Below are positions 5,702 through 24,015 of a DNA stretch of 43,433 bases, one piece after another. Under the pieces are notes generated by a model. That model saw only the letters and a list, made by a program, of their open reading frames with translations, ran no database searches and had not been told where the DNA came from. Source of the DNA: a virus. The position numbers and the translations under genes are program-made. The stretch lies in the IMG/VR virus record IMGVR_UViG_3300031997_000023, positions 1 through 43,433 of that record; one strand, written 5' to 3'. Each line of letters starts with the position of its first letter. Position 1 is the first letter of the stretch.

Positions 5702-7252
5702 TTACACGCCGCGCCAGCCGTGATTCATGACCCCAATCTGTTCGTCTTCCTGACCGCACATCATCAGGGCTTCCTTCGGATCGCCACACTTTGACATCTT
5801 CTTCTTGTCCTCAATCGTGAATGCCTGCAAATCTTCCACGCTTCGGCAAAGCTGGATCACGGTGTCAAGCCGGTCTGGCGAATTTTCCTTTCGAGTCTTT
5901 CTCGCAATCTCCTTCGATTCAATCCTGATCCTGTTGTCATCCTGATTCCGCATCAAAAACTGGCGTTTCCTCATCTGCTCAAGCAATATCTCATCTTTCG
6001 GCAGGATCACGGCGTTCTCGTTCATCAGCCTTTTCAGCTTCCAATGAAGCTCGGCATATTCATCAACAAACTGTAACTTGTCCATTGGCAACTGGTTACT
6101 ATTGACCTTGTTGATATACCAGCCGTTTTTCTCAATTTCGCGGATGATTTCTGCGCCCAACCCACCATTGTCGCCGTACACCTGATCGTCTCTCAATCCA
6201 AACTGCTCGTACAGCCTGATGTACTTCAACGCCTCGTCACTAGGCGCGCTCCCGGATGACCGCTTCCAGCAGACAAGCGGATAGATAAAGTTGCCATCAC
6301 GACACCCGAACGTGCTCTCATCTCCCCCTCCGGCAAAGTCACAAAAGGCCATCTTGGTGCTTCCGATCTTCTCCCGCATCCCGCTCATGGCATGGCCCAC
6401 CTTGGCCAGATCATTGTCGTTGAACACATGGTAGGCATCGCTTCTGAAGAACTTCGCCAAGAGGATAGAGCATACCTTGGGGTGATCCTGACCATGCGTC
6501 TCTATCATGGCCTTCTTCCGGCTCCTGGACGGCTCCTTAAGCAAGTGTGGGCATTGTGTCCAGTCTATCCCCTCCGGAGCAAATTGAATCTTCTTGCCCT
6601 GCCATGTCCATTCCGTGGTCCACGTCTTGCTCTTGTTCATGCAAGCGTCGTAAAACTCACCGTTATTCTCTCCTGACGTGCTGATGTAAAGCACCACATT
6701 GGCATTGCACCGCTCTATCGCCTCGAATATCTCTGTCCGGCCACTCTTGGCTTCGTCATTGATGATCACCAGCGGGAACGGTCTGTCATTGAAGTCCCTG
6801 TCGGGCTGTATGTCCTTGTGGAATCCCTCAAACCGCCCGCCCTCCTTGGTGCAGAAGTACAGAATCTCACTACTCCGCAAGCCGTCAATGCTCGGGAACA
6901 CCACTTTGTCATTCCGAAAGTTCCATTCCGGTTGCCGCAGACAAAATGACCTCAAGCTCGGAGCCAACTGTTCATCCAACTGCCGCTCAGATGCCGACGT
7001 GATAACTACCCGGCTCCCCGGAAAGGCCAGACACACTGAAATTGCAAATATCGGCACCACATAGCTCGTCTTCCCCGCCTCATTACAGCAAATACACGCC
7101 ACTTGCGCCCCATCCCGCCACAACGCATCGAAAATCGCGCACTGCCATGGGTACGGCTTCCTCGGCGTCAAGTACCTGGCCTGCAATACCGGGTGAAACT
7201 CCGGCAGGAACTTGAACCGGCCATCACTCAAGGTCAAACTCTCACCGCTCAC
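5702..7252 (-). CDS. Terminase large subunit
   Basis: A 516-residue ATPase-nuclease that drives DNA into the head. A Walker A-like motif (CCNEAGKTS, about residues 55-63) and Walker B (LVIINDEAKSG, about 161-171) mark the ATPase half. The C-terminal half has the RNase H-type nuclease acidic residues in CDFAGGGDE, YGDNGGLG and SPDRLDTV. The start is a GTG overlapping the upstream gene by four bases (GTGA). Length and motif order are typical of the family. It is followed by the parS-like palindrome. Confidence 0.93.
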   Translation of the reverse strand: MSGESLTLSDGRFKFLPEFHPVLQARYLTPRKPYPWQCAIFDALWRDGAQVACICCNEAGKTSYVVPIFAISVCLAFPGSRVVITSASERQLDEQLAPSLRSFCLRQPEWNFRNDKVVFPSIDGLRSSEILYFCTKEGGRFEGFHKDIQPDRDFNDRPFPLVIINDEAKSGRTEIFEAIERCNANVVLYISTSGENNGEFYDACMNKSKTWTTEWTWQGKKIQFAPEGIDWTQCPHLLKEPSRSRKKAMIETHGQDHPKVCSILLAKFFRSDAYHVFNDNDLAKVGHAMSGMREKIGSTKMAFCDFAGGGDESTFGCRDGNFIYPLVCWKRSSGSAPSDEALKYIRLYEQFGLRDDQVYGDNGGLGAEIIREIEKNGWYINKVNSNQLPMDKLQFVDEYAELHWKLKRLMNENAVILPKDEILLEQMRKRQFLMRNQDDNRIRIESKEIARKTRKENSPDRLDTVIQLCRSVEDLQAFTIEDKKKMSKCGDPKEALMMCGQEDEQIGVMNHGWRGV

Positions 7253-8087: not shown

Positions 8088-8254
8088 TATGGCTCCATTC
8101 TCAACAAACAAATAAGCGACCTCATCTTCATCGAAAACCTGAACGCCCGGATCACCGCCTCCGCCGATTCTCCCAAGCTCCGATGCCCCGTTTGCTCCTT
8201 CACTTCCCGCAAGTACTCCATCACGTCACGATCCAGCTTCACTACCCGCTTCAT
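8087..8254 (-). CDS. Ribbon-helix-helix (CopG/Arc-like) small DNA-binding protein
   Basis: 55 residues. The pattern RVVKLDRDVMEYLREVKEQ followed by SLGESAEAVIRAFR is a beta strand, helix, turn and second helix as in ribbon-helix-helix repressors and antitoxins. It would bind DNA as a dimer. It overlaps the HNH gene start-side by 28 bp and the next gene by TAATG. Likely a phage transcription regulator; a link to terminase expression is only positional. Confidence 0.6.
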   Translation of the reverse strand: MKRVVKLDRDVMEYLREVKEQTGHRSLGESAEAVIRAFRFSMKMRSLICLLRMEP

Positions 8255-8639
8255 CCTTGACCCTCCGTTCCTTGATCTGTTCGTATTCCTTCCGCAACCG
8301 GTTCACATCTCCTACCTTCCCCTTCCGTCTCAAGCTATCATTCCACGCCTTCCAATCCTTCCCGTGCCCCACCAGCCAATGGTGCAACCGGCACATGGTG
8401 ATCAGGTTCTCTTCCAAGCACGCCTTCTCCGGACAGACATGCACCGGCTCCCGATGATGCACGTCATTCCCTCGCCCAAAGAAACTTGCCGCCACCCCGC
8501 ATACAGCACAATCAGGAAACTTCTTCCTGAACGCCCTCTTGGCCGACTGTACCCGCCACTCCGTCACCGGATGACGCAACGATCCAGCCAACCTATCCCA
8601 TCTTGTTTTCACGTTTCCCTTTCTTGAAAAACACTGCAT
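8226..8639 (-). CDS. HNH endonuclease upstream of terminase
   Basis: 137 residues with a zinc-type HNH core: CAVCG (CxxC), DVHHREPVHVC, and NLITMCRLHHWLVGH. HNH proteins encoded beside terminase in HK97-like phages cooperate with terminase in cos cleavage and packaging, and that is the likely role here. The start is uncertain: ATG at 8639 overlaps the upstream gene by 47 bp, while an in-frame GTG near 8611 would nearly remove the overlap but has a poor ribosome site. Confidence 0.85.
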   Translation of the reverse strand: MQCFSRKGNVKTRWDRLAGSLRHPVTEWRVQSAKRAFRKKFPDCAVCGVAASFFGRGNDVHHREPVHVCPEKACLEENLITMCRLHHWLVGHGKDWKAWNDSLRRKGKVGDVNRLRKEYEQIKERRVKDEAGSEAGS

Positions 8640-9734: not shown

Positions 9735-10121
9735 CTAAAATGTGATTAAGTGTGACAGTCGAAACGGGGTATGGGGGAAGATGGGGATACGCTACACACG
9801 ATATTTGCCACAACCCCCCCCGTACCCATGCCGGCAACCCGAAACATGAGTAGACAGAAGCACTATTATGCGACGTAGACACACTAACACACTGCACCCC
9901 AACACCTTACAAGGGAAAAGTGTTGCGATAACCAATTATTTGCCCCAAAATCACCCAAAACAGGGTCAAAATGGACGGGTAGGGTGACAACCTGGATGGT
10001 AGGACACCACCACCAAGAGGATAATCTCGAGAGCTAACTGGCTCCCCAGGTCTCTCTCTCTCATCCCTTAACAATCCCTACCCCCACATATCCCCTCTAT
10101 AGTCTCCCCTTTTCTCCCCCA

Positions 10122-10140
10122 TAGTACTAGAGTAGTACTA
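10122..10140. promoter_or_regulatory. Two copies of palindrome TAGTACTA spaced by GAG
   Basis: TAGTACTA is its own reverse complement and occurs at 10122-10129 and 10133-10140, so the centres are 11 bp apart, one helical turn. This is the layout expected for cooperative binding of two dimers, such as the ribbon-helix-helix proteins encoded in the leftward operon. The binder is inferred. Confidence 0.5.
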
Positions 10141-10152
10141 CTCCCGTTCGCG

Positions 10153-10192
10153 GGGATGCTTTCGCGGTTTTGGGATGCGGTTTCGCGGTTTT
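10153..10192 (+). repeat. Iteron-like direct repeats
   Basis: GGGATGC, a 0-2 base gap and TTTCGCGGTTTT occur twice in tandem (10153-10171 and 10172-10192), and a partial TTCGCGG lies just upstream at 10147. Such 19-21-bp tandem repeats in a non-coding control region are typical of initiator or repressor binding sites. Confidence 0.5.
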
Positions 10193-10370
10193 CAGAATGT
10201 CAAAACTGGAATGCGTCTCAATGTCTCAATAAGGGGCGAAAGTGTAGTATTTGGCGACAAAATACGATTTATGGGGTGGATTGAGGAACTTGGCATACAT
10301 CCTGCATTGTAATCCATTGACCCCGAGTTGACATGCTGGTAGTTACCGGCGGGCGCGGGAGGGATTGACC

Positions 10371-13918: not shown

Positions 13919-14875
13919 ATGTCTGAAAATTCCATGATCATCTTTACTCGGGCCGCGCAAATGCTGGCCGAGGCCGACACCATCCAGAAAACGAAAGAGT
14001 TGAAAAGTCTTGCCCTGACAGCGGCGGAATGGGCAAAGAGGAAAGGCATGGGAGAAGAGGCCGTGCATCTGGCACAAAGCTACGCCCTTGAAGCGGAAAG
14101 AAAGATGGGCGAAATGCTCAGGGATACCGAAAGGAACAAAGGGGCAAAAGGTTCTATTGTCACCAGTACCCACAGGGAACCAGTGAAAGACAACACTCCC
14201 ACCCTTGCCGCCCTTGGCGTCAGCAAGAAAGAATCTTCACGGGCGCAGGCGTTGGCCGCATTGCCAAGGGCGACATTTGAGCAGATCAAAACGGGAGATA
14301 AAACAAGGGTGGAAGTAGCAAGGGAAATCAAGCGGGATGAAGTGAAGAAAAAAGTAGCAGAATTCCCAAGCGATAAATACCGGATTGTTTACGCTGACCC
14401 ACCGTGGAAATATGGCGATCAACTGACAGAAAATTACGGGTCAACCAAGTTCCATTATCCATCCATGACTATCTCGGAATTATGCGCATTACCAGTCAAA
14501 GATTTGGCTGAAGAAAATGCCGTTCTTTTTCTGTGGGTAACTTCGCCTATTTTGCCGGAGGCATTTGACGTGATCCGGGCTTGGGGGTTCGCTTACAAGT
14601 CGAGCTTTGTATGGGACAAAATAAAACACAATATGGGGCATTACAACAGCGTCCGTCATGAGTTTTTATTGATCTGTACACGCGGATCATGCTTGCCGGA
14701 TTCGCGAAAATTGACGGACTCCGTGCAGAGTATTGAACGGAGTGAAAAGCACAGTCAGAAGCCAGTAGAATTTAGGGCGATAATTGAAGAGATGTATACG
14801 GTAGGTAAAAAGATAGAATTGTTTGCAAGGGAGAAAACAGCGGGATGGGATACGTGGGGGAATGAATCCGGCTGA
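13919..14875 (+). CDS. MT-A70-family adenine methyltransferase with N-terminal helical domain
   Basis: 318 residues. The C-terminal half holds the MT-A70 core: YRIVYADPPWKYGD with the DPPW catalytic motif (about residues 158-171), FHYPSMTISELCALPV, LFLWVTSPILPEAF and KHSQKPVEF. These enzymes methylate N6 of adenine in DNA or RNA. The N-terminal ~150 residues are helical and charged, like the ParB/KorB-like or winged domains often fused to phage MT-A70 proteins; they may read DNA. It overlaps the putative nuclease gene by 14 bp. Likely roles are protection from host restriction or marking phage DNA. Confidence 0.9.
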   Translation: MSENSMIIFTRAAQMLAEADTIQKTKELKSLALTAAEWAKRKGMGEEAVHLAQSYALEAERKMGEMLRDTERNKGAKGSIVTSTHREPVKDNTPTLAALGVSKKESSRAQALAALPRATFEQIKTGDKTRVEVAREIKRDEVKKKVAEFPSDKYRIVYADPPWKYGDQLTENYGSTKFHYPSMTISELCALPVKDLAEENAVLFLWVTSPILPEAFDVIRAWGFAYKSSFVWDKIKHNMGHYNSVRHEFLLICTRGSCLPDSRKLTDSVQSIERSEKHSQKPVEFRAIIEEMYTVGKKIELFAREKTAGWDTWGNESG

Positions 14876-15420: not shown

Positions 15421-15525
15421 GCGGGTATGCAAAAAGTAAATCAGATGAAAATGTTTCCCCCGTGGGCGCCGGTTATCCGGTACAATTTCTGCGCAAAGCA
15501 GACTTTTTGCAGGCCTGCGGGGGGA
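15421..15525 (+). ncRNA. Pseudoknotted RNA element, copy 2 (leader of HNH gene)
   Basis: Same fold as copy 1. Stem A: 15421-15436 (GCGGGTATGCAAAAAG) with 15503-15518, one mismatch. Stem B: 15455-15462 (TTCCCCCG) with 15518-15525. Hairpins: GCCGG-TTAT-CCGGT (15468-15481) and TCTGC-GCAAA-GCAGA (15488-15502). The lower half of stem A and all of stem B differ from copy 1 on both strands while pairing is kept; the TTAT loop, TGGG linker and TCTGC hairpin are conserved. Copy 2 has no long T run; instead a ribosome site (GAGAGG) and the HNH start follow within 21 bases. A cis-regulatory leader is the simplest reading. Confidence 0.7.
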
Positions 15526-15545
15526 TTTTATCTGAGAGGTATCTA

Positions 15546-15983
15546 ATGACGAACAAGGCCAAACCGACCTACGCCGAGCAACTCCAATCCCCAAAGTGGC
15601 AGAAAAAACGGCTGGAAATTTTCAACAGGGATAAATGGACCTGCCGATTATGCGGAGACAAGGCAAAAACATTACACGTCCACCATTTGTTATATTGCCA
15701 TGGGCTGAGGCCGTGGGAATATGACAATGACTTTTTGATTACTCTCTGCCATGACTGCCACATTATCGTCATGCCTCAAGTTGACATTAGCCTTGCTGTT
15801 TTTGCTTTGGAAATTATGGCGGCGTTCGGTGTTGATTCAAACGCTTATCTGTTGAATCTTTCCAATTCCTTCAAGGCCCTTGACCGGTCGGAAATGATGG
15901 CTATGCTGAACACCATGGAAAGCATCCATGGCAGGGTGGTGGTGGAAGCATTGCAGGAATATCGAAAAGAAAAAAGGCATTGA
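15546..15983 (+). CDS. HNH endonuclease downstream of RNA element 2
   Basis: 145 residues. The start MTNKAKPTYAEQLQSPKW follows GAGAGG with a 5-base gap. HNH core: WTCRLCGDKAKTLHVHH and FLITLCHDCH, with CxxC zinc pairs. A helical C-terminal domain (residues ~75-145, AVFALEIMAAFGVDSNAYLL) of unknown role follows. Free HNH nucleases in phages act in homing, packaging or attack on host DNA; the RNA leader sets this one apart from the other two in the genome. Confidence 0.85.
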   Translation: MTNKAKPTYAEQLQSPKWQKKRLEIFNRDKWTCRLCGDKAKTLHVHHLLYCHGLRPWEYDNDFLITLCHDCHIIVMPQVDISLAVFALEIMAAFGVDSNAYLLNLSNSFKALDRSEMMAMLNTMESIHGRVVVEALQEYRKEKRH

Positions 15984-16017: not shown

Positions 16018-16926
16018 ATGAATGGGGTCGAAGCAAGCAATCAGAAATCTATTGGGGACACGGCTTCAGATGAGGGAAACCCTTCTGACGGTAAACTCCT
16101 GTCTGCACAAGACAACGACTTCGCCGATACTGGCCGTCGTCCCCATTTTAATAGGTCGCCAATGAATTCAATATTGAAACTACCGTTCTTGAAATTCTTT
16201 CCCCGTGATGTTTTGGCTGACACTCAGTTGCGCCTATGCTCCCCGGCGTCACATGGTGTTTGGCTTTATGTTTTTTGCCTGATGCTTACGTCTGACCGGT
16301 ATGGGTATCTCTGGCATAACGGTAAGCCATGCACAACCGAACAAGCGGCACGGATAATCGGTTATCCGGAACAGGTAGTATCATCCGGGCTTGAAGAGCT
16401 TTTGTCTGAAGGCGTATTCAGTCAAGACGAAAACGGAATATACTGCCGCCGGTTGCTCAAGGATAGGGAACGGTCAGAAGTTCTTTCAAAGTTTGGGCGA
16501 AAGGGGTACAGAGAGAAAGCTACAAAGAGAGATATTTCAGAAGCCAGAAGCCAGAAGCCAGAAGCCATATTCCAGAAGCCAGAGAGGCTTAAGCCTACCC
16601 TTAAGCCTACCCTTAAGCCAGACAATACATTACAACATGTTGAATTTGAAGAGGTTTGGAAGACATATCCAAAGCAAAAGGGTAAACAATCAGCACTGAA
16701 GTCATATTTGAAAGCACGAAATGAAGGGACTACGCAAGAAGAAATTATCGCTGGTATAAAAAGATATATTGCCTTTGTTACCGACGAAAAGAAAACAGGG
16801 TTCAATCGGCAATGGCAGGATGGATCAACATGGTTTAATGCAAAAGGATGGCTTGATGAAAACTTTGTTTCTGCCGTATCTCCAGCGGAAGACGAATACC
16901 AGAGAATGTTGAAAGGGGCACTATGA
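16018..16926 (+). CDS. Replication initiator / helicase-loader-like protein
   Basis: 302 residues. Around residues 49-160 (ILKLPFLKFFPRDVLADTQL, GVWLYVFCLMLTSDRYGYL, then TEQAARIIGYPEQVVSSGL) is a winged-helix domain of the kind found in phage replication proteins, followed by a repeat-coded linker (ARSQKPEA, LKPTLKPTLKP) and a DnaD/gpO-like C-terminal domain (FEEVWKTYPKQKGKQSALKS, QWQDGSTWFNAKGWLDE). It is coupled by ATGA to the primase-helicase, which it probably loads. The first ~48 residues look non-conserved, and an inner ATG at 16162 is possible; neither start has a good ribosome site. Confidence 0.75.
   Translation: MNGVEASNQKSIGDTASDEGNPSDGKLLSAQDNDFADTGRRPHFNRSPMNSILKLPFLKFFPRDVLADTQLRLCSPASHGVWLYVFCLMLTSDRYGYLWHNGKPCTTEQAARIIGYPEQVVSSGLEELLSEGVFSQDENGIYCRRLLKDRERSEVLSKFGRKGYREKATKRDISEARSQKPEAIFQKPERLKPTLKPTLKPDNTLQHVEFEEVWKTYPKQKGKQSALKSYLKARNEGTTQEEIIAGIKRYIAFVTDEKKTGFNRQWQDGSTWFNAKGWLDENFVSAVSPAEDEYQRMLKGAL
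16538..16620 (+). repeat. Tandem repeats inside the initiator gene (possible origin)
   Basis: CAGAAGC occurs four times with 7-bp period (16538-16565) and once more near 16573. Then CTTAAGCCTACC (12 bp) occurs twice and starts a third time (16588-16620). Iterons within the initiator gene, between its DNA-binding and loading domains, are how lambda-type origins are built. Confidence 0.5.
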
Positions 16927-18704
16927 CCGGGAAGGAATTATCCGAACGGCTGGCGAAGCAGGATGTGGAAAACATCTGCCGTCAACTTCTGCCCGGTGGC
17001 AAGACGCATGGCAAGGAATACACCTGCGGAAGCATTAGCGGCGGAGAAGGGCAGAGCATGAAAGTCTGCATTGACGGAGCCAAGGCCGGGGTGTGGTGTG
17101 ACTTCGCAACCGGTGACAAGGGTGACTTGCTCGGGCTGTACATGAAAACCAAGAGCGTCAAATTCAAGGACGCCATCGCTTGGGCCAAGGAATACTTGGG
17201 CCTTCGAGACAACAAAGAATTTCAAGCGTTGCCCAAAATGCAGAAGCCACGGCCAATCAAACCGCCAGCGGTGAACAACAACAATCCGGCTATGATCGAA
17301 TGGTTTCGGAATCGTGGCTTCACCTCGGCGAACCTCAAGCGGTACAAGGTCAGCACGAATGGGAGCGTCATCAATTTGCCGTATTACCAAGGCCCAGACG
17401 TGTACCACATAAAATACAAGGACATTGCCAAGGAGCGCAAGGAAAGCTGGCATTGCTCTCCTGGGTCAACGCCTATCCTGTTCGGCTGGCAAGCCATCCC
17501 TGATGACTGTAGAGAGATCGTGATAACAGAAGGGGAATGGGATGCCATGAGCTACGCAGAGCAAGGCATACCGGCATTGTCAATCCCCATGGGTGCCGGG
17601 TCCGGAGACAAACAGAAGTGGATTGAACTGGAGTGGGATAACCTTGAAATATACGACACTATCTTTTTGTCGTTCGACATGGATGACGCCGGGAAGGCCA
17701 TGCTTCCTTCGGTGGTTGAACGGCTTGGTCATCACCGTTGCCGGGTGATAGAGTTGCCCAAAAAAGACGCCAATGAATGCCACGTTGCCGGGGTGAAGCT
17801 GGCGGAATACAAGGACTGTGCGCGATATTGTGACCCGAAAGAATTGCGGTCAATGGAATCCTTTGCCGAAGATGTCCGGAAACTTTTCGACGGAAATGAA
17901 AACGATGTTGGCGACACATTGCCTTGGGAAAAGACGGAAGCCCAGTACAGGATGCGCCCCGGAGAGTTGACCCTGTGGCATGGTCATTCTGGACACGGTA
18001 AAACCATGATACTGTCCATGATTGCGGCGCAACTGATGAACCAAGGGAAGCGGGTTTGCATTGCCAGCATGGAGATGCCAGCGGCCAAACTACTCAAGCG
18101 GATGTACCAGCAAATAGGTTCTGTCGAGTGGCCTAATGACGAATATCTTAACCGCATAACGTACCACGTTACGGGCAAGGGGTGGCTTGTCAACATCAAG
18201 GGGACGGCCAAGGCTGATGTTGTTCTCCGGCTCTTGGATTATGCCTGTCGCCGCTACAGTGTCAGCCATTTTATTATTGATAGCCTGTGTAAATGTGGGT
18301 TCGGAGAAGATGATTACAATGGTCAAAAACAGTTTGTTGACATGCTGACAGATTTCACGACTGAGCGAAGCGTCCACATCCACTTGGTTGCCCATGATCG
18401 CAAGAGGGAAACGGGTCAACAAAAGAAAAATAATGATGGTGGAGATGATGAACCTATGCCAAGCCGAATGGATGTCAAGGGTTCTGGCGGCATTACGGAT
18501 ATGGCAGACAACGTCATAGCCGTGTGGCGAAATCGGCGGAAGGAATCAGAACAAGAGCAACGGAGGGATGATCCTGATTGCTTTTTATTCGTACAGAAAC
18601 AGCGTCATTATGACTGGGAAGGCAAGGTGGCCTTGTGGTACGACCGGCCAACACATCAATATCTGGCAACAAGCAACGACAAACCAAAACCGATAATGTT
18701 TTAA
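16923..18704 (+). CDS. Primase-helicase (Toprim plus DnaB/T7 gp4-type helicase)
   Basis: 593 residues. The N-terminal segment (ENICRQLLPGGKTHGKEY, GVWCDFATGDKGDLLGL) is like the DNA-binding part of phage primases but lacks the four-Cys zinc ribbon. Toprim: EIVITEGEWDAMSYAEQG and TIFLSFDMDDAGKAM (about residues 195-260). RecA-type helicase: Walker A GHSGHGKTM (about 353-361), HFIIDSL (Walker B), HIHLVAHDRKRE and the C-terminal WRNRRKE region. It would both prime and unwind DNA. No DNA polymerase was found, so the fork probably uses host polymerase. Confidence 0.92.
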   Translation: MTGKELSERLAKQDVENICRQLLPGGKTHGKEYTCGSISGGEGQSMKVCIDGAKAGVWCDFATGDKGDLLGLYMKTKSVKFKDAIAWAKEYLGLRDNKEFQALPKMQKPRPIKPPAVNNNNPAMIEWFRNRGFTSANLKRYKVSTNGSVINLPYYQGPDVYHIKYKDIAKERKESWHCSPGSTPILFGWQAIPDDCREIVITEGEWDAMSYAEQGIPALSIPMGAGSGDKQKWIELEWDNLEIYDTIFLSFDMDDAGKAMLPSVVERLGHHRCRVIELPKKDANECHVAGVKLAEYKDCARYCDPKELRSMESFAEDVRKLFDGNENDVGDTLPWEKTEAQYRMRPGELTLWHGHSGHGKTMILSMIAAQLMNQGKRVCIASMEMPAAKLLKRMYQQIGSVEWPNDEYLNRITYHVTGKGWLVNIKGTAKADVVLRLLDYACRRYSVSHFIIDSLCKCGFGEDDYNGQKQFVDMLTDFTTERSVHIHLVAHDRKRETGQQKKNNDGGDDEPMPSRMDVKGSGGITDMADNVIAVWRNRRKESEQEQRRDDPDCFLFVQKQRHYDWEGKVALWYDRPTHQYLATSNDKPKPIMF

Positions 18705-18724
18705 CAGCACGGAGCAAATGACGA

Positions 18725-18889
18725 ATGAGTGACAAAAGGATTGACTACTACGTCGGGCTGATGCAAACAGAAGCAGTGAAGAAGAGAATCATCAAGAGCT
18801 TATTGAAAGAGATTGACCTAGTAATGATTGAGGTTATCCGCGAAATGGCGAAGAACAAGCGTCTATCGAAACTCCTGGAGATAAGTTGA
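18725..18889 (+). CDS. Hypothetical 54-residue helical protein
   Basis: MSDKRIDYYVGLMQTEAVKK then two more amphipathic helices ending KLLEIS. The stop overlaps the next ATG by one base (TGATG). GGAG lies about 10 bases upstream of the ATG. A small helical protein beside the primase-helicase; no family recognised. Confidence 0.5.
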   Translation: MSDKRIDYYVGLMQTEAVKKRIIKSLLKEIDLVMIEVIREMAKNKRLSKLLEIS

Positions 18890-19047
18890 TGAAAGTGCGA
18901 TGCAACCGGTGGAAAAGATGCAATGACCAGATGTGTCCACACTGGCCGGAGCATGAACAGCAGACGTGCTACGTGAAGCAATTCTGCATCGAGACCGGCT
19001 GGCTGGTGAAGTGCAAGGAAGTCAAAACAAAAGGGGAAAAGCGATGA
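18889..19047 (+). CDS. Small Cys-rich protein, 52 residues
   Basis: MKVRCNRWKRCNDQMCPHWP, then CYVKQFC and a later C. Six cysteines with His suggest a zinc-binding module. Coupled by one-base and ATGA overlaps to its neighbours. No family recognised. Confidence 0.5.
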   Translation: MKVRCNRWKRCNDQMCPHWPEHEQQTCYVKQFCIETGWLVKCKEVKTKGEKR

Positions 19048-19181
19048 GCGAAGAGAAAATGAAAGAATTCTGTCGCCGGAACTGCACTAAAAAACTTGGC
19101 TGGAATGAGCAGAAACGGAAAACTTGCAGACAAACAACTCGATGCACGGAATTGTGTGACATGATAAAAAGAAAGAGATGA
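19044..19181 (+). CDS. Small Cys-rich protein, 45 residues
   Basis: MSEEKMKEFCRRNCTKKLGW, then CRQTTRCTELC and a basic end. CX3C, CX5C and CX3C spacing, highly basic. ATGA overlap with the preceding gene. Could bind zinc and nucleic acid. Function unknown. Confidence 0.5.
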   Translation: MSEEKMKEFCRRNCTKKLGWNEQKRKTCRQTTRCTELCDMIKRKR

Positions 19182-19185
19182 TGCT

Positions 19186-19311
19186 ATGAAAAAGATAGAT
19201 ATACCCAAGGGAACAAAAGCAAAGTTGAGTAAAGATTTCTACGAAACCGTTTCCGTCTGCGGGCACATTGACACGGCAGGCGGAACATATTCCTGCATGG
19301 AGGTGATATGA
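19186..19311 (+). CDS. Small hypothetical protein, 41 residues
   Basis: MKKIDIPKGTKAKLSKDFYE, then a short segment with two cysteines (SVCGHIDTAGGTYSCMEVI). Starts after AAAGAG and is coupled to the next gene by ATGA. Function unknown. Confidence 0.45.
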   Translation: MKKIDIPKGTKAKLSKDFYETVSVCGHIDTAGGTYSCMEVI

Positions 19312-19481
19312 TTGTCAAGTATGGCTGGATAGGACGGAATGATAAAGGGGTGGCGATTGGAAGAGACGCAAACTGCCTTTCTGTTTTCATCGAAAAAACA
19401 AAAGGGAAAAAGACTGACTGGCTTTCGTCATGCTGGCCGCCGCGCAAGGTGAAGATCACAGTCGAGGAGGTAAAAGGATGA
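19308..19481 (+). CDS. Small hypothetical protein, 57 residues
   Basis: MIVKYGWIGRNDKGVAIGRD, CLSVFIEKTKGKK, and VKITVEEVKG look like a small all-beta protein. Two cysteines. The stop overlaps the next ATG. Function unknown. Confidence 0.5.
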   Translation: MIVKYGWIGRNDKGVAIGRDANCLSVFIEKTKGKKTDWLSSCWPPRKVKITVEEVKG

Positions 19482-19528
19482 ACGATATAACCATGAGCTT
19501 TACAAAAAAAGAACTTCAGGAGACATGA
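19478..19528 (+). CDS. 16-residue peptide frame in a coupled chain
   Basis: MNDITMSFTKKELQET, preceded by GAGGAGG-type sequence and joined by ATGA overlaps to frames before and after. Coupling is the only evidence. It may be a real micro-peptide or a translational relay. Confidence 0.3.
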   Translation: MNDITMSFTKKELQET

Positions 19529-19599
19529 GCGAAGACATATGGCTGGCGCGATTCGGCTTATTGTGCGCTTTCATTGACGAACAATTTTCTGAAAAATGA
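19525..19599 (+). CDS. 24-residue peptide frame in a coupled chain
   Basis: MSEDIWLARFGLLCAFIDEQ then FSEK: amphipathic. ATG after AGGAGA, with ATGA overlaps on both sides. Could be a true micro-protein; evidence is limited to the ribosome site and coupling. Confidence 0.35.
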   Translation: MSEDIWLARFGLLCAFIDEQFSEK

Positions 19600-19649
19600 A
19601 CGGTCTGAAAATAATTCAAAAAACATTTGACGCCGAAGGGAAAGTTTGA
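19596..19649 (+). CDS. 17-residue peptide frame overlapping a promoter-like sequence
   Basis: MNGLKIIQKTFDAEGKV. It is the last link of the ATGA chain and overlaps the TTGACG box at 19627. A short coding end and a promoter for the following RNA can coexist. Weakly supported as a gene. Confidence 0.25.
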   Translation: MNGLKIIQKTFDAEGKV

Positions 19650-19655
19650 GAGAGT
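19627..19655 (+). promoter_or_regulatory. Promoter-like sequence before the large structured RNA
   Basis: TTGACG (19627-19632), a 17-bp spacer and GAGAGT (19650-19655). The run AAAAAACATTTGAC is shared with the promoter at 15392. The -10 box is poor by sigma70 standards but close to the TAGAGT used elsewhere in this genome. Confidence 0.45.
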
Positions 19656-19659
19656 ACGT

Positions 19660-20460
19660 TCTTCAAGGGAGAAACAGCGATGCAAAACAAGACCATAAAC
19701 CAAACCTGCTTAACCACCCGGCGGAGCCATGTCGAGCCTGTCATCTCTATGAGGTTGCCAGAAACTTGCATGACCGGGAGTCGCTTCCCGTCCCCCGCCG
19801 GGTCTTTTAATTCGGGGATTAGCTCAGATGAGCGCAGACGTGCAAAGAGCAACCGTGGCGACACGGAAGGACGAACTACAGCTCTGCAAGAAGACGCAAA
19901 CGGAACGAACGTGAAATCCTTGCACTCAAAGTTCATCCCCGGCCATTCTGAAAATAGTTCTTGCACATCCACCGGGAATGTGGCAACTTGCTGGCATGAC
20001 AAAAATACGAAATTATTTTTGGAATCAAAACCAGCGACAAGCAAAGATCAACTTTCTGCCCCACATGGGCATAAGCGCGAGCCTTGCCTGTTGCTCCGGC
20101 CAAACCGGATCAATAATTTCGCATGTGGGGTAATTTTCTCTGCGTGGTGTCATCGTGTAGTTACCGGAGATCGTCGAGACGGGCCGCTTAACAAAGGCAT
20201 GTGCGTTAGAAGGGGCAACCCACCTAACTTAATTTGGCATGATGAACATGTATATCATGCGGGACTGTTCAGTCAACGAAATCAGACTAGCGTAGGAAGT
20301 GGCGAACCATGGCGCGTGGAACAGAAAATGCGATGTCGGCAGGCTCCATACCGGGGACTGATGATAGAGCGATACATCCTCTCAGAAGGCTTGGGGGGAG
20401 TATCGCTCAGAACGGCTCACCACCCGAAGATTGCTGATAACCAACAACCCAACAAAGGAG
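19660..20460 (+). ncRNA. Large structured non-coding RNA candidate (GOLLD/ROOL-like in size and setting)
   Basis: About 800 nt with many exact, nested helices. Examples: ACCCGGCGG 19716-19724 with 19795-19803; CGGGA-TCCCG hairpin 19775-19790; GGGGAT 19814-19819 with 19935-19940, enclosing a D-arm-like GCTC-AGAT-GAGC; CCGTG-GCGA-CACGG (19853-19866, GNRA loop); TGCAAG 19885-19890 with 19919-19924; AAAAATA 20001-20007 with 20014-20020; CCCCACATG 20059-20067 with 20122-20130 around TCCGG-CCGGA; GCATGAT 20237-20243 with 20254-20260; GACTG-CAGTC 20263-20274; GAGCGATAC 20367-20375 with 20400-20408. One long open frame (19680-20468) crosses it but reads as a low-hydrophobicity, Cys/His/Arg-rich sequence. 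The family name is inference from size and phage context; I cannot recall a consensus to compare. Confidence 0.7.
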
Positions 20461-20464
20461 AAGC

Positions 20465-21553
20465 ATGAGTAACGAGATTGTGAAGCACGAACAAGGCGAT
20501 ATCGTCAGGGCGCAAGAGTCTCTGACGGTGGCGGATATACGGTCACAGATCAAACTTATCCAAGACCTGATGAAGGGGGCCATGCAACGGGATCAACACT
20601 ATGGCGTAGTGCCTGGATGTGGCGACAAGCCAACATTGCTCAAGCCCGGAGCGGAGAAGATCAGCATGATGTTCCGACTGGTTCCAACATATTCCGTGAA
20701 CCGGACTGACTTTGAAAATGGCCACCGTGAATATGAAGTGACTTGCACCCTGACCCATACTTCAAGCGGGATTCCATCCGGGCAGGGCATGGGATCGGCC
20801 AGCACCATGGAAGGCAAGTTCCGGTATCGGTGGGAGAACACCAACAGACAAGTTCCCAAAGAGTACTGGGAAAACAGAGACAGTGACCTGCTTGGTGGAA
20901 ACACGTTCTTCCCAAGGAAAAAGGATGGGGCATGGATGATTTTCCAGCGGGTTGAACATGACACTCCGGCGGATTATTTCAACACCTGCTTGAAGATGGG
21001 GCTGAAGCGGGCGCATGTATGCGCTTGCTTGAATGCCACGGCGGCCAGCGATATTTTCACGCAGGATATTGAGGACTTGCCCGGGAACGAAGAGGACAAG
21101 AAACCATTCAAGCCTGAAAACCCCATGATGCCGAAGCGCAAGAGCGAACCGGCGCCAGCAAACATCGAAGTCAACAGCGGGGATATCGTCGAGACAGTCA
21201 CCAAGAAAACCGGGCAAGGCAAGAAAGGGCCGTGGACAAAGTATGGAGTCAAGATCGGTGGCGAGTGGTACGGCACGTTTGACGTGAAGATCGGCGAGCA
21301 GGCAGAGGCGTTGAAGGGTGAGCAGGTAGAGTTTGAGTGGAAGCAGGATGGCGAATACAAGACTTTGACGGACATCCGTTTTGCACTGGACAAGGAATAT
21401 CAGCCAGCGGAAGAACAAACACCGCAACCGCCAGTGAATACCAAGGTGACAGCCGATGACGACTTTCTGACTGGCATTGACAAGCCTGACGATCAGACGC
21501 AAGCAAGCCAGAATAAGCTGGAAGATAAGAGGAAGTCAACGGGGGTGAAATGA
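20465..21553 (+). CDS. Putative recombination-associated ssDNA-binding protein with OB-fold tail
   Basis: 362 residues, AAAGGAG before the ATG. Residues ~25-215 include GAMQRDQHYGVVPGCGDKP and TLLKPGAEKISMMFRLVP, a pattern of a phage family often next to exonucleases. Residues ~230-305 (GDIVETVTKKTGQGKKGPW, YGVKIGGEWYGTFDVK, GEQVEFEWKQDGEYKTLTDI) look like an OB fold that could bind single-stranded DNA. The C-terminus is Gln/Asp-rich. With the RecB-like nuclease 226 bp further on, it probably makes a two-part recombination module (annealing protein and exonuclease). The annealing role is inferred. Confidence 0.55.
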   Translation: MSNEIVKHEQGDIVRAQESLTVADIRSQIKLIQDLMKGAMQRDQHYGVVPGCGDKPTLLKPGAEKISMMFRLVPTYSVNRTDFENGHREYEVTCTLTHTSSGIPSGQGMGSASTMEGKFRYRWENTNRQVPKEYWENRDSDLLGGNTFFPRKKDGAWMIFQRVEHDTPADYFNTCLKMGLKRAHVCACLNATAASDIFTQDIEDLPGNEEDKKPFKPENPMMPKRKSEPAPANIEVNSGDIVETVTKKTGQGKKGPWTKYGVKIGGEWYGTFDVKIGEQAEALKGEQVEFEWKQDGEYKTLTDIRFALDKEYQPAEEQTPQPPVNTKVTADDDFLTGIDKPDDQTQASQNKLEDKRKSTGVK

Positions 21554-21554
21554 C

Positions 21555-21785
21555 ATGATAACGGGAGAGTATTTTTTCGGGCAGACGGTAGCACAAAACA
21601 GAGGGCTGGCGACTTTGAGGAAAATTGTGCTCGATCAAATCTCGGCGTCGGGAATTCAATCCGATGGAGCCATGGCCGGATTTATTGACGTTCAGCGAAG
21701 ATTTTCCGGTGACATTGCCGCAGTTCAGGATTGGCTGAAAAAGATTGACGCGAGAATCGAGGAAAGGAAATCGCTGCAATGCTGA
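21555..21785 (+). CDS. Hypothetical 76-residue protein between annealing protein and nuclease
   Basis: MITGEYFFGQTVAQNRGLAT, then helical to KKIDARIEERKSLQC. Nearly abuts the upstream gene and overlaps the nuclease start by 7 bp. No family recognised; position suggests an accessory of the recombination module. Confidence 0.6.
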   Translation: MITGEYFFGQTVAQNRGLATLRKIVLDQISASGIQSDGAMAGFIDVQRRFSGDIAAVQDWLKKIDARIEERKSLQC

Positions 21786-22447
21786 CCTTCGACAAATCCA
21801 ACCATATCTACCACTGGAACGGGAAGCAGCTTCCGTCTGTTACGGAGATTCTGGAAAAGACCGGCTGGATTGACAAAACGTGGTTCACGGACGATGCGAG
21901 GAACCGTGGCACGGCGACGCATGAAGCCATCCGGCTGTATCTTCAGGATGATCTTGACCCCGACAGCGTACACCCGGAAGTCCAGCCAAGACTTGACGCG
22001 GCCAAGCAATTCCTGCATGACATGAAGGTCGAGCCGATCCATATCGAGGTGCCGATGGTCTGCATCTTGACGCCAGGCCAGCCTTACGCCGGGACGCCTG
22101 ACCTGGTGTGTAAAATAGATGGAGCCATTACGGTCATTGATTGGAAAAACGCGGCAGTTGAGTCCTGCTGGTGGCCGATGCAAATGAAGATGTATTCGAG
22201 ACTGGACGAAATAAAGAAACTGATGCAAATGAAGATGTATTCGAGACTGGACGAAATAAAGAAACTGAAAGACGCTCGACTACATAGTGTCAGACTTCTG
22301 GAAGACGGGACATATCGCATGAGCAAGAATTATAGAGATGATCTTTGGGCTGGATTGCGTGTTGATAACGCGATATGGGAATACGTCGAGCGGCTGTCGG
22401 AGGGGCTGGTAAAACTGAAGGAATCGAACGCTGGAGGTGAAGCGTGA
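21779..22447 (+). CDS. RecB/Cas4-like PD-(D/E)XK exonuclease with duplicated QxxxY motif
   Basis: 222 residues. Opens YHWNGKQLPSVTEILEKTGW, as in phage RecB-like exonucleases, with RGTATHEAI (His motif) near residue 45. Active site: GTPD (Asp ~108), VIDWKN (Asp121, Lys123), and QMKMY (Gln135, Tyr139). The 15 residues 134-148, which contain the QxxxY motif, are repeated exactly at 149-163 by a 45-bp tandem duplication. The nuclease would chew double-stranded ends for the annealing protein. Whether the extra helix is tolerated is unknown. The frame is intact. Confidence 0.85.
   Translation: MLTFDKSNHIYHWNGKQLPSVTEILEKTGWIDKTWFTDDARNRGTATHEAIRLYLQDDLDPDSVHPEVQPRLDAAKQFLHDMKVEPIHIEVPMVCILTPGQPYAGTPDLVCKIDGAITVIDWKNAAVESCWWPMQMKMYSRLDEIKKLMQMKMYSRLDEIKKLKDARLHSVRLLEDGTYRMSKNYRDDLWAGLRVDNAIWEYVERLSEGLVKLKESNAGGEA
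22178..22267 (+). repeat. 45-bp perfect tandem duplication in the exonuclease gene
   Basis: Units 22178-22222 and 22223-22267 are identical and in frame; each codes a 15-residue helix holding the QxxxY motif. Identity at every base, including third positions, means the event is recent or is an assembly artefact. Confidence 0.9.
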
Positions 22448-22700: not shown

Positions 22701-22967
22701 ATGAAGACAATCTGGAAATGGACGCTGCAACCGGAACTGTCGTTTGCACAACTCAGGGCGCTCCGGGGCGCGGCAGAGGGCAACCCCGCAGCCGGCATCC
22801 ACGGCCGGTCCGCATACGGCGGGCTGGCCGCGACGCTGTGGTGTCTCCGCAAGCGCGGGCTGCTGGACGCCGCGCACAAACTGACGGGCGCCGGCCGTGA
22901 GGCTCTACGTACCGCCAACGCAAGGGGTGAGTCTTTGCCACCCCAGGAGAAAACAAATGGACACTGA
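22701..22967 (+). CDS. Hypothetical 88-residue winged-helix-like protein
   Basis: MKTIWKWTLQPELSFAQLRA, then SAYGGLAATLWCLRKRGLLD and LTGAGREAL. The order helix, helix, LRKRGLL then TGAGREAL is like winged-helix proteins that end in an aligned 'T..G' strand. AAAGGA precedes the ATG. It overlaps the next gene by 11 bp. GC-rich, part of the island. Confidence 0.55.
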   Translation: MKTIWKWTLQPELSFAQLRALRGAAEGNPAAGIHGRSAYGGLAATLWCLRKRGLLDAAHKLTGAGREALRTANARGESLPPQEKTNGH

Positions 22968-23208
22968 GAAGACCGCTGGCGGGGTGGCAATAGACTCCAC
23001 CCCATTGTTGGACTGTCCCGATTGCGGTGGTTCGGGGTGGGTCGAGGGCACCGGGATGGCGCATCATCCATCGTGCAACGGATCATGCCGGAACTGCCCG
23101 ATCCCGGTACAAACGCAGGAACCGTGTGGCATGTGTGGCGGGACAGGACAAGTCAAGTCCAACGCCAGCAATGAGAGGCGGCAAGAGCCGCCGGAAAGGA
23201 AGCCATGA
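22957..23208 (+). CDS. DnaJ-type zinc-finger protein, 83 residues
   Basis: Two CxxCxGxG motifs, CPDCGGSGWV and CGMCGGTGQV, bracket a Cys-rich middle (CNGSCRNC). This is the zinc domain of DnaJ without a J domain. Such small proteins are common in phages; a chaperone or protein-binding role is possible but unproven. CAGGAGA precedes the ATG. Confidence 0.65.
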   Translation: MDTEKTAGGVAIDSTPLLDCPDCGGSGWVEGTGMAHHPSCNGSCRNCPIPVQTQEPCGMCGGTGQVKSNASNERRQEPPERKP

Positions 23209-23480
23209 AGATCAGAACCACGCTCGCGGCGGCTCTTGCCGTACTCTCGATTGCGTTGTTGTGCGGGTGTTCATCGGAGCCTCACAAGGCAAAGATCATC
23301 TGCCACGACTACGACGAGGACGCCAACGATGGTGCCGTCTCGCGCAACTGCAAGACGACCATCGAGGTTGTGGACTCCGGACACCGCATGATCTGGAGCG
23401 GCAACTATGGGCCGACCGGAGACGTGTTCACGGTCTACAACCACCACGTCCTGGAATCTGTGTGGGGGCCGAATCCATGA
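23205..23480 (+). CDS. Putative lipoprotein, 91 residues
   Basis: Signal peptide ending in the lipobox LLCGC (acylated Cys at about residue 22), so it should be anchored in a membrane of the host envelope. The mature part has two cysteines and a beta-type C-terminus (HRMIWSGNYGPTGDVFTVYN). Phage lipoproteins of this size often block superinfection or change the host surface. Overlaps its neighbours by ATGA. Confidence 0.65.
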   Translation: MKIRTTLAAALAVLSIALLCGCSSEPHKAKIICHDYDEDANDGAVSRNCKTTIEVVDSGHRMIWSGNYGPTGDVFTVYNHHVLESVWGPNP

Positions 23481-23524
23481 GTACGCACAACAATGCCGTC
23501 ACGGGCGCCGGAGGCGTACCGTGA
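23477..23524 (+). CDS. 15-residue coupling peptide
   Basis: MSTHNNAVTGAGGVP links the lipoprotein stop (ATGA) to the methyltransferase start (GTGA). It has no other evidence and may serve only to pass ribosomes on. Confidence 0.25.
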   Translation: MSTHNNAVTGAGGVP

Positions 23525-24015
23525 ACGCACTGGTTCTGCCTCCTGTTCTCGACGCCTGTTGCGGACCTCGCATGATGTGGTTCGACAAGGCCGACGGCCG
23601 GGCTCTGTTCGTGGACAAGCGCCGAGAACAATGCGTGTCCGACACGCGCCAGGGCCGTCGCGAGATCGTCGTGGACCCTGACCAGATCGCCGACTTCCGG
23701 GCGCTGCCGTTCCCCGACGCGACGTTCGCGCTGGTCGTCTTCGACCCGCCGCACACGTTCGCGGGGCCGAATGGATGGACGCGGAAGAAGTACGGGACGC
23801 TGGAACGCGACTGGCGCGAGGACATCCGGCACGGATTTGGGGAGTGCTTCCGCGTGCTGTGCCCACTGGGAACGCTGGTCTTCAAGTGGAGTGAGCACCG
23901 GGTGCCGGTCAGCACGGTACTGGCGCTGACTCCCGATCGGCCGCTGTTCGGGCAACGGTGCGGCACGACGGCCAAGACGCATTGGATCGTCTTCATGAAG
24001 CAGAACAGGGACTAG
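23521..24015 (+). CDS. SAM-dependent methyltransferase with DPPH motif
   Basis: 164 residues, GTG start after GGAGG. LDACCGPRMMWF near the N-terminus is a shortened SAM-binding loop and ALVVFDPPHTF is the catalytic DPPx motif of N6-adenine methyltransferases. FRVLCPLGTLVFKWSEH and KTHWIVFMK follow in the usual order. It is small and lacks a clear target-recognition domain. With the MT-A70 enzyme, this gives two adenine-type methyltransferases in one phage, perhaps both for evading restriction. Confidence 0.8.
   Translation: MNALVLPPVLDACCGPRMMWFDKADGRALFVDKRREQCVSDTRQGRREIVVDPDQIADFRALPFPDATFALVVFDPPHTFAGPNGWTRKKYGTLERDWREDIRHGFGECFRVLCPLGTLVFKWSEHRVPVSTVLALTPDRPLFGQRCGTTAKTHWIVFMKQNRD

Follow-up and report, generated by a model that had tools for sequence, protein, structure and literature searches.

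A strongly folded segment within a long open reading frame upstream of the recombination genes of a 43-kb phage genome

The DNA analysed in this study (43,433 nt; hereafter, the window) constitutes a viral record of 43 kb, whose - strand carries the structural genes and whose + strand carries an early module. The presence of primase, phrog_10048 and terminase-like genes indicates a phage setting. In the early module, the genes for an MT-A70-type methyltransferase (13919-14875), an HNH endonuclease, a replication initiation protein and a primase/helicase (16923-18704) are followed by a run of small overlapping ORFs (18725-19599, + strand; 54, 53, 45, 41, 57 and 24 codons, and others). Next to this run lies the folded stretch described here, followed by a gene of the phrog_10048 family (20465-21553, + strand), which is the first gene of the recombination module, and by an exonuclease-like gene (21779-22447).

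Several other features of the window deserve mention. The terminase-like protein (5702-7252, - strand) is closest to those of Akkermansia phages (26-29% identity), and this kinship hints that the host belongs to Verrucomicrobiota or to a nearby lineage. A sharp switch in GC skew occurs at ~10 kb, and the region that separates the leftward block of genes from the rightward one (9740-10360), which contains short inverted repeats such as AGTACTAGAGTAGTACT, is likely a regulatory or replication origin region. A 10-bp stem, TGCAAAAAGT, is present at 15428-15511, just before and extending into the HNH endonuclease gene (15462-15983), in a strongly folded section of the genome (z -5.5); a second HNH gene is located at 8226-8639.

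A single ORF of 262 codons (19680-20468, + strand) spans the whole folded stretch of 790 bases. It starts right after AAGGGAGAA, with a Shine-Dalgarno (SD)-like AAGGGAG and spacer (19666-19679) preceding the ATG, and its TGA stop codon overlaps the start codon of the phrog_10048 gene (ATGA). None of 20,000 dinucleotide shuffles yielded an equally long stop-free run, and the other two forward frames contain 12 and 16 stops. With a chance probability near 1e-5 (by composition, a few per million for each frame), a frame of this length is unlikely to be accidental. A longer-than-chance frame with a ribosome site is therefore present at 19680-20468, and together with the ATGA overlap it has the expected look of a translated gene in this operon. 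The downstream gene has its own SD sequence (AAAGGAG), and thus strict translational coupling to the preceding frame is not required. A consensus scan detected no sigma-70-like promoter on the + strand, nor did it find the promoter-like box that had been proposed at 19627-19655, and neither a terminator nor an independent promoter was found for the folded stretch. There are no tRNA genes in the 43-kb window.

In contrast to these gene-like boundaries, the protein-like signal of the ORF is very weak. Its codon-position chi2 value (3.6, p 0.73, with no period-3 signal) is the lowest among the 309 ORFs of at least 200 aa, and its codon score is -0.035, as compared with 0.04 to 0.29 for most genes. 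The amino-acid composition is fitted 20 bits better by random translation than by natural protein. Codon-position signal and protein-like composition are thus both lacking, although a few proven genes come close to these values. The ORF has no family match in Pfam or PHROG, its one match in PDB is insignificant (E 0.07), and no relatives of the encoded protein were detected by tblastn or by a peptide-pattern scan of IMG/VR. An AlphaFold model from the single sequence reached a pLDDT of 32 with almost no secondary structure, whereas the exonuclease-like protein, which was also modelled without an alignment as a control, reached 41 with many helices. Low values are not confined to this ORF: several others with a low signal turned out to be real genes (chi2 5.5-8.8), among them L066 and L025, which have chi2 values of 5.5-5.7 and yet give clear PHROG hits. 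A weak coding signal therefore does not exclude a protein. The statement in the preliminary description that the stretch holds no convincing protein is only partly correct: it agrees with the weakest coding signal and the lack of relatives, but it left out that the frame is open with a chance probability near 1e-5, and the ORF also has the SD-like site and the ATGA overlap.

The stretch is rich in stems. We counted perfect Watson-Crick stems with arms within 130 nt and found six of at least 8 bp in 19660-20460, as compared with 0.98 +- 0.93 expected from dinucleotide shuffles, none of 200 of which reached six; for stems of at least 9 bp, the numbers are four and 0.31. Synonymous-codon shuffles, which retain the encoded protein and codon usage, contained 0.95 stems, and the minimum free energy (MFE) of the stretch has a z value of -4.4 against them (0 of 120), whereas the same comparison for four neighbouring genes gave z values of -0.5 to -1.9. 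In a set of 60 ORFs of equal length, the other 59 phage ORFs have zero to three such stems, and the fold z of 19680-20468 is the second lowest or tied for second. The MFE z of the whole region is only -1.8 to -2.2 with a free base-pair span and -4.0 when the span is limited to 130 nt. Strong local folding is also found elsewhere: a coarse scan of the + strand identified three other 750-nt sections of the same genome with local-fold z < -5, one of which surrounds a 15-bp inverted repeat at 23179-23241, and fold z values of -5.8 and -4.4 were obtained for L054 and L072, both of which are proven protein genes of related phages. The structure is thus above chance and not unique in strength, whereas the stem count is unique.

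The structure clusters in four blocks within 19712-20411, and neither flank (19600-19711 and 20412-20465) folds significantly on the + strand. In domain I (19712-19806, + strand), two inner hairpins are enclosed by a perfect 9-bp stem (19716-19724/19795-19803); this domain has a low ensemble diversity and a z value of -3.3, which, like the other per-domain values, is somewhat optimistic because the domain borders were picked from a fold. Domain II (19814-19940, + strand; z -3.0) is enclosed by a GGGGAT/ATCCCC helix (19814-19819/19935-19940), begins with the tRNA-like 5' start GGGGATTAGCTCAG and contains a GCGA-capped (GNRA) hairpin at 19853-19866 (19853-19857/19862-19866). Domain III (z -3.6 on the + strand) is divided into IIIa (19965-20048; z -2.5), a CUGG/CCAG stem with an inner 8-bp hairpin (20000-20007/20014-20021) and a CGAAAU loop, and IIIb (20057-20132; z -3.9), a three-way junction closed by a perfect 9-bp stem (20059-20067/20122-20130). 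The folding of domains IV (20134-20285) and V (20284-20363) is weakly supported, with z values of -1.0 and +1.1 that are not significant. Domain VI (20364-20411) is an 18-bp hairpin composed of nine perfect pairs (20367-20375/20400-20408) and nine inner pairs, three of which are G-U, with z values of -7.5 on the + strand and -4.8 on the - strand. In domains I, III and VI, folding is weaker on the - strand, where the ensembles of I and III are also less well defined. The G-U pairs of hairpin VI correspond to A-C mismatches on the opposite strand, which favours selection on the sense RNA.

A direct base check confirmed that the three 9-bp stems of domains I, IIIb and VI are exact and that the GCGA-capped hairpin and the GGGGAT/ATCCCC helix of domain II are present, as had been described. 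The figure of sixteen nested stems given at the same time is overstated, although the stems cited for it are exact, because any MFE fold of 800 nt yields many nested stems, and the folding of domains IV and V is not significant. A possible loop-junction pseudoknot may be formed between CGAAAU (20008-20013, the loop of IIIa) and AUUUCG (20116-20121), and this candidate pairing reaches 10 bp if hairpin IIIa opens. As a kissing-loop interaction it is within chance, because 12% of shuffles contain a match as long.

None of 4,227 Rfam models, including those of GOLLD, ROOL, group I/II introns and tRNA, matched at the gathering score in the whole window (cmscan) or at E<=10 in 18600-21600, and an identification as a group I or group II intron was rejected on this basis. 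Membership of GOLLD or ROOL is defined by the family models, and both RNAs usually lie near tRNA islands; GOLLD (RF02032) members often exceed 800 nt, and loop-junction pairing has been reported for ROOL (J6/8-L8) and GOLLD (L20-J13/15) (PMC12286853). The stretch resembles GOLLD in its length, its phage origin and its multi-domain fold, and loop-junction pairing is conceivable here. It differs in that no model match was obtained at E<=10, no tRNA is present in the window, no second member was found and the structure is carried, as part of an operon, by an open frame that an SD-like site precedes. Similarly, ROOL (RF03087) is an ornate RNA encoded by phages, with pseudoknots and a loop-junction contact of which the candidate pairing is reminiscent, but again there is no model match at E<=10 and the context is different. 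The proposal that the stretch is a folded RNA is thus supported statistically, whereas its placement in or close to the GOLLD or ROOL family is not supported, given the lack of an Rfam match at E<=10, of a tRNA gene and of a promoter or terminator, and the SD-led frame in a tight operon.

The tRNA-like appearance of domain II is partial. Over 14 bases, the start genuinely matches common 5' ends of tRNAs, and the domain shares with tRNA (RF00005) the start GGGGAUUAGCUCAG, an acceptor-like GGGGAU/AUCCCC and a D-stem-like GCUC/GAGC; the acceptor, U8-A9 and the D stem resemble the 5' half of a tRNA. The T-arm is missing, the D-loop has 4 nt, the domain extends over 127 nt, no cloverleaf with T-arm and anticodon arm is formed, and both ARAGORN and Rfam were silent. 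A pattern scan of IMG/VR for the tRNA-like start combined with ATCCCC returned five loci in which the pattern lies at tRNA genes, and none of them aligned to the RNA in the window.

No homologue of the stretch was found by scans of IMG/VR, including four with DNA patterns, by blastn against phage and plasmid collections, or in genome_contigs. Searches with blastn and nhmmer in 85 loci detected no second copy, and DNA searches and two single-sequence covariance models yielded nothing in ~50 complete records from phages whose downstream gene is related. In L009 and L011, the ORF-poor gaps that precede this gene show no stem excess; that of L009 contains small ORFs. The stretch is a lone candidate represented by a single sequence, an orphan relative to the IMG/VR, phage, plasmid and genome_contigs collections searched, and because no second member was found, it cannot be shown to be a new family.

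We tentatively regard the stretch, with a probability of about 0.4, as a segment of an early polycistronic mRNA upstream of the recombination genes that is strongly folded and in which the frame has been kept open. Blocks I, II, III and VI (19712-20411) would be folded within a ribosome-accessible, uninterrupted frame (19680-20468), which ribosomes would enter at 19680, traverse and leave at 20468. Maintenance of the frame would allow translation to run on to the recombination genes without Rho-type polarity, and the selected product would be the RNA fold. The fold may act in cis by pacing ribosomes, by shielding the mRNA or by gating the gene at 20465; alternatively, the segment may persist as a folded RNA once translation drops late in infection. 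In the mRNAs of RNA phages of the MS2 type, the folding of one cistron controls the next. The present arrangement is similar in that a folded ORF lies upstream of, and overlaps, the start of the next gene; it differs in that the phage is a DNA phage and the coding signal is missing, and control of this kind is putative. An untranslated RNA would have to account for the open frame, and an ordinary gene for the lowest codon signal and the highest stem count in the comparison sets; a folded RNA with a maintained frame explains both, but it needs two selective pressures.

The strongest competitor, itself short of an even chance, is an orphan protein-coding gene of the ordinary phage kind, with 262 codons and an unusual composition, in which the stems are incidental or serve a minor tuning of translation. 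The length of the frame (near 1e-5), the SD-like site, the ATGA overlap and the tight operon position are all what such a gene would have, and real phage genes with a weak codon signal or a strong fold exist. Against it stand the lowest codon-position signal of 309 ORFs, a composition 20 bits nearer to random translation, the lack of a Pfam, PHROG or significant PDB match and more stems than any of 59 other ORFs contains; the AlphaFold model also lacks confidence, although the control protein, when folded alone, is low as well (pLDDT 41). We place the folded segment with a maintained frame slightly ahead of the orphan gene, a small difference that is based on one sequence. It is improbable that the stretch is simply decaying or recently acquired DNA with no selected fold and no functional product. 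Such an origin would fit the lack of relatives in the collections searched and the three other sections of the genome with z < -5, but the stem excess and the frame length, each unlikely by chance, would have to be accidental and yet co-occur with gene-like boundaries. The least probable reading, for which we see very little room, is a large, independent non-coding RNA that functions in the manner of GOLLD or ROOL, with multiple domains, loop-junction pairings and possibly multimers. Size, multi-domain fold, phage setting and a candidate loop-junction pairing of the ROOL/GOLLD type speak for it, but it would require the 262-codon frame to be a coincidence of about 1e-5, there is no promoter, terminator, nearby tRNA or Rfam match, and the loop-junction pairing is not significant.

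A further reading, in which the stretch would be an undescribed large phage RNA combining a multi-domain fold, a tRNA-mimicking domain and a loop-junction pseudoknot in a stop-free frame, with a functional fold that ribosomes traverse, appears unlikely. If fold and frame are both selected, the segment would represent a phage RNA to which the customary division into coding and structured RNAs does not apply and would provide a clear test of whether stop-free frames through structured RNAs guard operons from polarity; otherwise, it is one more orphan early gene. In either case, an assignment to GOLLD or ROOL is not warranted.

Additional observations concern the downstream part of the window and another phage contig. 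The exonuclease-like gene contains an exact 45-bp tandem duplication (15 codons; 22177-22266). The GC-rich stretch at 22.5-24 kb looks acquired, with 63% GC at 23001-24000 and a methyltransferase gene with foreign codon use, and it contains a perfect 10-bp stem, TTGCCACCCC/GGGGTGGCAA, at 22935-22990. The perfect 15-bp inverted repeat mentioned above (23179-23193/23227-23241, within 23164-23248) encloses in its loop the SD sequence and the start codon (ATG, 23205) of a small lipoprotein-like ORF, an arrangement that suggests control at the level of translation. On an IMG/VR phage contig (L006:4360-4707, - strand), a tRNA gene has ~46 extra nt in the anticodon arm and is followed after 5 nt by a match to permuted tmRNA (RF04321; 47.3 bits, cut-off 47), which may represent a phage-encoded permuted tmRNA adjoining an intron-bearing tRNA.
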